A stretch of 64,000 nt of DNA from positions 62,001-126,000 of the forward strand of contig CANLND010000006.1 in NCBI GenBank assembly GCA_947492585.1. Direction: 5' to 3'. Below the pieces are notes generated by a model. It saw nothing but the letters and a program-made list of their open reading frames with translations, ran no database searches and had not been told where the DNA came from. Positions 62,152 through 64,000 of this stretch are shown here, one piece after another; positions within the stretch are counted from its first letter, which is position 1; each line of letters opens with the position of its first letter. The DNA comes from an uncultured Paracoccaceae bacterium. Its GTDB lineage: Bacteria; Pseudomonadota; Alphaproteobacteria; Rhodobacterales; Rhodobacteraceae. The position numbers were made by a program, and so were the translations under genes.

Positions 62152-62284
62152 TACCAAATTTACAGCCCCGGTTTAGTGTGGAAAATGGCGGTTCGGAGTG
62201 CGTAGTTCGTAGGTCAAGAGGGGCAGATACCCCGCCAGTGCAGCGCAGGCTGGATTGACAAGACACCCTGTGTTGCACAAAGAC

Positions 62285-62298
62285 TCCGTTATGACGGA
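62285..62298. promoter_or_regulatory. Putative XRE operator over the start codon of the regulator gene
   Basis: TCCGT-TATG-ACGGA is a perfect 5+5 palindrome spanning the regulator's own ATG (62291). A GANTC site (GACTC, 62282-62286) overlaps its left edge, and a TTGACA hexamer lies at 62255-62260. The palindrome recurs upstream of kbl. Confidence 0.7.
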
Positions 62299-62857
62299 AC
62301 ATAGCACAGACATCCTCACCCTCTTGCCTGCCCGCCTCAAAGAGGCGCGGCGTGCCCAAGGTCTTTCCTTAGAGGCCGTGGCCAACCTTTCCGGGGTCAG
62401 CCGATCCATGGTCAGCCAGATTGAACGCGGTGAATCCTCGCCCACCATTGCCACACTCTGGAACCTGACCCGCGCCTTACAAGTGGATTTTGCCGGCCTA
62501 TTAGAGGCCGGAGATGCTGCCGATCATATCGATGTCCTGTTGGCTGCGGATGTGCCCAAGATAGAAAACATGGGCCAAGGCTGCCGTATTCGTATCCTGT
62601 CGCCTCCCGAAGACGTCGGCGGCCATGAGGTCTATGATATCCGTTTTGATGCCGGTGGCGCGCTGGACAGCCAACCACATGGGCGTGGCACCCGTGAGCA
62701 ACTGACGGTGTTGGAGGGACAGGTACAGCTGATCTCGGGCGCAGCCAAATCGCACCTGGATCGCGACGATTCTGCCCGCTATGCAGCTGACGTTCCGCAC
62801 ATGATTACCGCCATCAACGGCCCTGCCCGCGTTTTTTTGATTGTAAAGAACAGTTAA
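62291..62857 (+). CDS. XRE-cupin regulator, probable regulator of kbl (threonine catabolism)
   Basis: A 188-residue protein. The helix-turn-helix is residues about 12-65 (LKEARRAQGLSLEAVANLSGVSRSMVSQIERGESSPTIATLWNLTRAL); the small cupin is about 105-185 (HEVYDIRFDAGGALDSQPHG, LTVLEGQVQLISG). It is distinct in sequence from the XRE-cupin protein at 3.1 kb. It lies 108 bp upstream of kbl, and palindromes shared by the two leaders suggest control of itself and kbl. The start is ATG 62291 (MTEHSTDILTLLPARLKEA), embedded in an operator. Confidence 0.88.
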   Translation: MTEHSTDILTLLPARLKEARRAQGLSLEAVANLSGVSRSMVSQIERGESSPTIATLWNLTRALQVDFAGLLEAGDAADHIDVLLAADVPKIENMGQGCRIRILSPPEDVGGHEVYDIRFDAGGALDSQPHGRGTREQLTVLEGQVQLISGAAKSHLDRDDSARYAADVPHMITAINGPARVFLIVKNS

Positions 62858-62865
62858 GAGAAAAA

Positions 62866-62879
62866 TCCGTATTGACGGA
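62866..62879. promoter_or_regulatory. Putative XRE operator 1 upstream of kbl
   Basis: TCCGT-ATTG-ACGGA, a perfect 5+5 palindrome with the same half-sites as the one at 62285-62298; 87 bp before the kbl GTG. Confidence 0.7.
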
Positions 62880-62885
62880 AATTTG

Positions 62886-62915
62886 TCCCAAATAACTGAT
62901 TTCCCCTATTTGGGA
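62886..62915. repeat. 9-bp inverted repeat in the kbl leader
   Basis: TCCCAAATA (62886-62894) and TATTTGGGA (62907-62915) are exact reverse complements with a 12-nt spacer. They lie between the two TCCGT sites. No T-run follows; this may be a second factor's operator or an mRNA hairpin. Confidence 0.6.
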
Positions 62916-62921
62916 AAATAA

Positions 62922-62935
62922 TCCGTTATGATAGA
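62922..62935. promoter_or_regulatory. Putative imperfect XRE operator 2 upstream of kbl
   Basis: TCCGT-TATG-ATAGA: the left half and spacer are identical to the site at 62285 but the right half is degenerate (ATAGA for ACGGA). It is 56 bp centre-to-centre from operator 1. Confidence 0.5.
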
Positions 62936-62965
62936 ACTCTCGCAAATGACCGAGGGAGTTTTATC

Positions 62966-64000
62966 GTGTCCACTGCATTTCTGACCCACGTTTCGCAAAC
63001 CCTGTCCCAGATTGATGCGGATGGCCTGTATAAGCGCGAGCGTATGATCACTTCGCCGCAACGCGGCGAAATTGCGGTTGGCGACCATAAGGTGATCAAC
63101 CTGTGCGCCAATAATTATCTTGGTCTTGCGGATCACCCAGACCTGATCAAAGCAGCCTGCGACGCAATGGAACCCAAAGGGTTCGGCATGGCCTCGGTAC
63201 GCTTCATTTGTGGCACGCAAGATCTGCACCGTAAGTTAGAGCAGCGGCTGGCCCGTTTTTTAGGGAAAGATGATTCCATCCTTTTTGCTGCGTGCTTTGA
63301 TGCCAATGGCGGTCTGTTTGAACCCCTGCTTGGCCCCGAAGACGCAATCATTTCCGACAGTCTGAACCATGCATCCATCATCGATGGCATTCGCCTCTGC
63401 AAGGCCAAGCGCTATCGATATATGAACAACGACATGATCGATTTGGAGGCGTGGCTGCAACAAGCCCGTGCAGATGGCGCGCGTCATATCATGATTGCCA
63501 CCGACGGCGTGTTCTCGATGGATGGCTATCTGGCGAAACTTCCCGAAATCCGGGCTCTGGCCGACAAATACGATGCCGTGGTAATGGTGGATGATTGCCA
63601 CGCGACAGGCTTCATGGGACCCAACGGTGCCGGTACACCTGACCACTTCGGCGTCGACGTCGATATTGTCAGCGGCACTCTTGGCAAGGCCCTGGGTGGT
63701 GCCATTGGTGGATACATCGCCGGCCCTCAGCCGGTGATAGATCTGCTGCGCCAACGCGCGCGACCTTATCTGTTTTCAAACTCCTTGCCCCCGGCCATCG
63801 TCGCCGCAGGAATCGAGGCGCTGCGCCTTGTTGAAGAAGGTGCAGAACAGCGGGCACAGCTGTTTGAAAACACAAAATTCTGGCGTGCAGGGCTGACCAA
63901 GCTTGGCTTTGACCTATTGCCCGGAGAACACCCGATTGTGCCGGTGATGTTAGGAGAGGCCAAACTGGCGCAAGCCATGGCCAATCAGCTGTTTGACGAA
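62966..64000 (+). CDS. kbl: 2-amino-3-ketobutyrate CoA ligase (glycine C-acetyltransferase), partial
   Basis: The first 345 of about 395 residues; the gene runs off the right edge and is not in the ORF track. It starts at GTG 62966 ([16 protein letters not shown]) with GAGGGAG 7 nt upstream. Alpha-oxoamine synthase motifs are present: [47 protein letters not shown] and the PLP lysine in [19 protein letters not shown]. It converts 2-amino-3-ketobutyrate and CoA to glycine and acetyl-CoA, the second step of threonine degradation. tdh would be expected downstream. An XRE-cupin regulator sits upstream. Confidence 0.95.

Follow-up and report, generated by a model that had tools for sequence, protein, structure and literature searches.

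A putative local XRE-cupin repressor of kbl-tdh with conserved sites upstream of kbl and at its own predicted leaderless start

Results

The regulator gene and its neighbours

The window, by which we mean the whole 64 kb stretch of DNA that was analysed, carries a gene for an XRE-cupin regulator upstream of kbl (Table 1). Genes ubiB, XRE, kbl and tdh follow one another in this order, and a serA-like gene lies farther on in the opposite strand; tdh follows kbl with a one-base overlap, and kbl and tdh are found in full at locus L114. At its N-terminus the regulator has an XRE/HTH_3 DNA-binding domain (HTH_3, 59.8 bits against a Pfam cut-off of 23). The cupin half lies under the Pfam cut-off (Cupin_2, 19.3 bits versus 27.2), and the C-terminal cupin domain was instead recognized in the predicted structure (pLDDT 78.8), which matches the XRE-cupin protein 1y9q over its full length (Foldseek E 1.1e-17) and 6b8w, an isolated XRE cupin domain, to 1.8 A across 94 columns. 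By sequence the best solved relative is again 1y9q (E 1.5e-20). PuuR, the putrescine utilisation regulator, also has an XRE-cupin layout; the best-scoring NCBIfam model, NF007408, gave 44.3 bits against a cut-off of 211 and we therefore do not regard the protein as PuuR. In the literature searched we found no description of the regulator, its operator or the circuit.

Two other start codons were rejected. A TTG 12 codons upstream (62255) falls on the -35 box, and the alignment of relatives begins at the ATG. The second, a TTG inside the gene (62324), for which TATGAC would be the -10 box, was dropped because the residues between the ATG and this codon are conserved as protein and because the -35/-10 spacing fits the ATG.

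Table 1. Features at the regulator-kbl locus, in window coordinates
Feature	Position	Strand	Basis or remark
-35 box TTGACA, regulator promoter	62255..62260	+	TTGAC conserved in relatives
-10 box CAAAGA, 17 nt past the -35 box	62278..62283	+	conserved C-A shifts with TTGAC
GANTC (GACTC), overlaps operator 1 by two bases	62282..62286		same place in 49/91 close relatives
Operator 1, TCCGTTATGACGGA	62285..62298		spans predicted transcription start (-6 to +8) and ATG (62291-62293)
XRE-cupin regulator, 188 aa, mRNA predicted leaderless	62291..62857	+	Pfam HTH_3; fold match 1y9q
kbl site 1, TCCGTATTGACGGA	62866..62879		aligned and conserved in 85 relatives; model score 16.4
kbl site 2, TCCCAAATAACTGA	62886..62899		weak in window; consensus TCCg..ATa.tG.A
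kbl site 3, TCCCCTATTTGGGA	62902..62915		relatives' alignment and weight matrix
kbl site 4, TCCGTTATGATAGA	62922..62935		consensus TCCGYTATGNTAGA in relatives
Candidate -10 box TATGAT, kbl promoter, within site 4	62927..62932	+	TATGNT conserved over symmetry
kbl Shine-Dalgarno GAGGGAG	62952..62958	+	sequence; relatives' consensus AAGGAG
kbl (glycine C-acetyltransferase), runs beyond window	62966..64000	+	NCBIfam 2am3keto_CoA above cut-off

Occurrence of the motif

An earlier note on this DNA had placed the inverted repeat TCCGT-N4-ACGGA over the regulator ATG and again upstream of kbl. Both copies were confirmed (62285-62298 and 62866-62879) and they are the only exact ones in the window, the second lying 86 nt before the kbl GTG (62966). 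The degenerate third copy that had been reported is present as well, with two mismatches, at site 4. The upstream kbl copies that had been seen are thus real, but the sites at 62886-62899 and 62902-62915 had been missed, which brings the number of sites before kbl to four rather than two. With up to two mismatches allowed there are 17 matches in the window against 25.3 expected, and in the whole genome the exact pattern occurs at three places versus four for a reversed control pattern; the third place is inside a 454-aa ORF, in coding frame. The count is no higher than chance, and what is non-chance is position and conservation. Since the exact pattern is not over-represented in either the window or the genome, chance was judged by conservation. 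Across 18 genomes of the genus the exact motif recurs systematically only at the regulator-kbl places, and exact matching in these genomes therefore gives no sign of a wider regulon.

Operator 1 and the start of the regulator gene

Eighty relatives from genome contigs were combined with further copies from the genus, giving 91 sequences after removal of duplicates, the window included. Operator 1 is kept in nearly all of them; the sequence from -6 to +8 is TCCGYYATGACGGA, with only occasional differences. Its right half forms codons 2-3 (ACG GA). Where residue 2 is threonine the codon is ACG in 87 of 88 cases, compared with 24% for threonines elsewhere in these genes (binomial p 2e-52, which is an indication only because the relatives are non-independent). 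This codon preference amounts to a silent constraint at Thr-2.

The promoter is conserved too. TTGAC is found 29-31 nt before the regulator ATG in 87/91 relatives. Among 65 further genera, 46 have it at a distance of 28-31 nt, where about 0.7% would be expected by chance. When relatives are split by the distance between TTGAC and the ATG (29, 30 or 31 nt), a C-A pair tracks TTGAC at a fixed 17-nt spacer, and for this reason we marked C-A as the -10 box; a non-T at the last -10 position is common in Alphaproteobacteria (PMC8407463). The window layout is TTGACA, 17 nt, CAAAGA, CTCCGTT, ATG, and the pattern TTGAC-N17-CA....-N6-8-ATG holds in nearly all relatives and is mostly kept where operator 1 is absent. 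By this geometry the -35 and -10 boxes put the transcript start at the ATG, and across the 91 relatives no Shine-Dalgarno occurs consistently before it. We therefore predict that transcription starts at the ATG or one base before and that the regulator mRNA should be leaderless. In about 16 of the 91 relatives AGGA lies near the ATG, and these might have a very short leader in which a Shine-Dalgarno is used weakly. As a separate observation, in relatives resembling Pseudophaeobacter and Tritonibacter (L092-L100, L019-L029) ACGTCCCGTCATTGACA is kept across the -35 box, some 30-45 nt upstream of the XRE start codon, a degree of conservation that exceeds what a -35 box needs.

A GANTC site had been described as overlapping the first operator. 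It is there (62282-62286) but is limited to one clade: it stands at exactly -9 of the XRE ATG in the close relatives that have it, in all three promoter registers, and in only 2 of 28 XRE promoters of other genera. GANTC also occurs in 69/84 kbl leaders of close relatives, mostly as GCGACTC placed 19 nt beyond the first base of site 4; in other genera GANTC near kbl is often merely the Shine-Dalgarno GGAG plus TC.

The four-site array upstream of kbl

Upstream of kbl are four phased sites of the form TCC-N8-(G)GA, spaced 20, 16 and 20 bp apart in the window. The array is present in 85/85 close relatives, and the alignment of these regions reads TCCg..tTcaCGGA-ttTTTT-TCCg..ATa.tG.A-..-TCccctATTtgGGA-..-TCCGtTATG.tAGA, with site 3 replaced by TCCACCTTTACGGA in Tritonibacter-like relatives. 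Site 4 departs from operator symmetry toward TATGNT, which would fit a kbl -10 box. In the window's clade there is no convincing -35 box in the kbl promoter, and the kbl transcript start is consequently one that we infer. Where 0.5-1.7 kb separates XRE from kbl the array stays beside kbl. The gap itself is 0.24-1.7 kb in about 30 relatives (L005-L029 and a few others) as against about 0.1 kb. In one further genome (G148, L192) site 4 and the Shine-Dalgarno stretch upstream of kbl occur in three near-identical tandem copies.

The kbl sites depend on the regulator

In six genomes the regulator and kbl are unlinked, and in all six the lone kbl elsewhere carries all four sites. We then considered 249 genomes of the family, one per genus, calling the regulator at E below 1e-50. 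The regulator is present in 83 genera and kbl in 136; kbl accompanies the regulator in 82 of the 83 genera that have it, compared with 54 of the 166 that do not (Fisher p about 1e-27, only indicative because genera are related). The one genus with the regulator and no kbl (G263) has an interrupted kbl ORF beside it. A weight matrix built from the close relatives was applied to the kbl upstream regions of other genera. All 63 further genera that carry the regulator reached 10.2 or higher, while 28 of the 29 genera with kbl and without the regulator stayed at or below 6.9 (Mann-Whitney p about 2e-14). The lone exception (L210, G175) scores 11.2; none of the other 28 has an XRE relative at E below 1e-18, whereas here one of 35% identity is encoded beside kbl in divergent orientation. 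In another genus (G257) kbl is 84% identical and neither regulator nor sites are present. The core promoter of the neighbouring gene, in short, holds conserved, regulator-dependent palindromic sites, which are putative binding sites. No relative that keeps the pair of genes was found without the motif upstream of kbl, and the proposal of joint control over kbl (and with it tdh) is strongly supported: the sites track the regulator, also when the two are unlinked, and are missing without it.

Related genes were also seen. Some other families of Alphaproteobacteria have XRE genes of about 36-44% identity beside kbl, and TCC-N8-GGA-like sites are found close to them. In one genome (G014, L102) an additional XRE gene is paired with another kbl, at 61% and 73% identity to their counterparts in the window; these two genes have a site of their own between them and look like a copy that has diverged or been acquired. 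Another genome (G161, L222, 3373-3951, minus strand) encodes a 41%-identical XRE paralog that has no kbl in its vicinity; the ATG of this paralog is covered by the identical operator, TCCGTCATGACGGA, and preceded by TTGAC at 30 nt. The overlapping downstream gene (318 aa) resembles a PLP-dependent cysteine synthase-type enzyme.

A clade without operator 1

A coherent clade of about 26 genera is missing operator 1 and keeps the kbl sites; on the tree, the labels change 6 times against a shuffled mean of 25. Many operator-1-less genera still show TTGAC 28-31 nt before the ATG, which argues that leaderlessness is independent of the operator. In this clade a kbl TTGACA lies within one site, and often a further site is fused with the kbl Shine-Dalgarno (TCCGTNAAACGGAGG; L177, L178, L184 and others). 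The sequence TCCGTNAAACGGAGG could form a short hairpin in RNA. Because these genera keep the kbl sites without a site at the ATG, autorepression is not essential to the system. The tight autorepression that had been predicted thus fits most of the family, where operator 1 and the silent constraint point to it, but not this clade. Comparison across the family indicates that kbl control is the widely kept function and that autorepression through the start codon is common and dispensable.

Discussion

We consider it probable that the regulator is an XRE-cupin protein acting locally to repress kbl-tdh and, in most cases, its own gene as well. The sites, their conservation, their dependence on the regulator and the promoter geometry come from comparison of relatives and genera; that this protein is the binder, and that it represses rather than activates, is what we infer. 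In our working model the 188-aa protein would bind inverted repeats of the TCC-N8-GGA type as a dimer, fill up to four phased sites over the kbl-tdh core promoter and shut the operon. Binding of a small molecule to the cupin domain would release it; metabolites of the threonine-glycine pathway are natural candidates, and the ligand would most likely be one of these. At its own gene a single strong site would be centred on the transcription start, where bound regulator would block RNA polymerase and so provide tight negative feedback. Operator 1 would sit on the start codon because the transcript is predicted to begin there; with a leaderless mRNA it would necessarily cover that codon, and since it spans the transcription start, the block would be on transcription. 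Given the analogy with known XRE-cupin regulators and the placement of sites over core promoters, repression is the most likely outcome at both promoters.

An alternative is that the regulator activates kbl-tdh, with sites 3 and 4 replacing the missing -35 box, and represses only itself. The kbl promoter in the window's clade does have no TTGAC-like -35 box, and sites lie upstream of the core promoter as well as across it. In the distant clade, however, the sites extend over a good TTGACA -35 box, and over the Shine-Dalgarno as well, which is a repressor layout, and all studied P. aeruginosa XRE-cupin regulators are repressors (PMC7901475). We therefore regard activation as unlikely. It is considerably less probable that the sites belong to a different protein, be it an XRE paralog or any other DNA binder. 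These genomes do have paralogs at 35-41% identity, one of them with the same operator over its own ATG, and the regulator is a predicted binder; yet the kbl sites come and go with it across 92 genera and the genes are usually neighbours. A role for the repeats at the RNA level, with hairpins or a riboswitch forming in the leaders, is highly improbable. TCCGT-N4-ACGGA could fold as a 5-bp hairpin, and in the distant clade a repeat overlaps the kbl Shine-Dalgarno, but the predicted leaderless mRNA would not include the left half of operator 1, sites 1-3 are upstream of the likely kbl start, their presence follows the protein, and an Rfam search gave no match. Equally hard to credit is start-codon occlusion as first suggested, in which a leadered mRNA would come from farther upstream and the protein would hide its start codon: operator 1 does cover the ATG, but a DNA-bound protein does not hide an mRNA start codon, the promoter spacing puts the start at the ATG and no Shine-Dalgarno recurs consistently, so that the claim has to be reworded as a block of RNA polymerase by an operator spanning the transcription start.

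A further elaboration of the repressor model concerns methylation. The strongest operator of this threonine-breakdown repressor would lie partly in its own codons 2-3 at a leaderless start, and in one marine clade both its own and the kbl promoter carry a CcrM-type (GANTC) methylation site beside an operator. Binding or promoter strength could then vary with methylation through the cell cycle, although we think this rather a long shot.

If the repressor model is right, a regulator uncharacterised so far, present in roughly one in three of the genera sampled from a large family of mainly marine bacteria, gains a target, an operator and a testable circuit, and kbl-tdh, a main route from threonine to glycine, gains a dedicated local switch in this family. 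The locus also offers (i) a clear case, seen by comparison, of one stretch serving both as operator and as the start codon plus codons 2-3 of a gene predicted to be leaderless and (ii) an example of a kbl site array gained and lost along with its regulator. An operator that extends into codons at a leaderless start is attractive as a detail and does not amount to a new mechanism.

There is precedent for several parts of this arrangement. MgxR (Bxe_B3018) of Burkholderia xenovorans is encoded near kbl-tdh and responds to methylglyoxal (PMC4349456). It is tied to glycine/threonine breakdown, so that the likeness is one of location and pathway; MgxR differs in that the operon it is shown to control is its own transporter operon (PMC4349456). 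The C proteins of restriction-modification systems, C.Csp231I and its relatives, are likewise small helix-turn-helix proteins with leaderless mRNA and palindromic self-operators in their own promoters (PMC4824078). They differ in that they regulate restriction genes and activate at low levels. To our knowledge, a cupin domain is not part of the C protein family. The best solved relative by sequence and fold, 1Y9Q, is an HTH_3 family regulator of Vibrio cholerae, likened by those two measures alone at about 30% identity. The closest parallel in action is with the XRE-cupin regulators of Pseudomonas, which are local repressors with palindromes in core promoters adjoining their own genes; PauR, PsdR, ErfA, PA1359 and others in P. 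aeruginosa share the two-domain layout, local action, palindromic core-promoter sites and metabolic targets (PMC7901475). That study does not mention kbl (PMC7901475). Compared with these repressors, in a likeness drawn apart from operator sequences, the present system is set off by its kbl-tdh target, its four phased sites and the operator at its own predicted leaderless start, and is otherwise an ordinary kind of local bacterial repressor.
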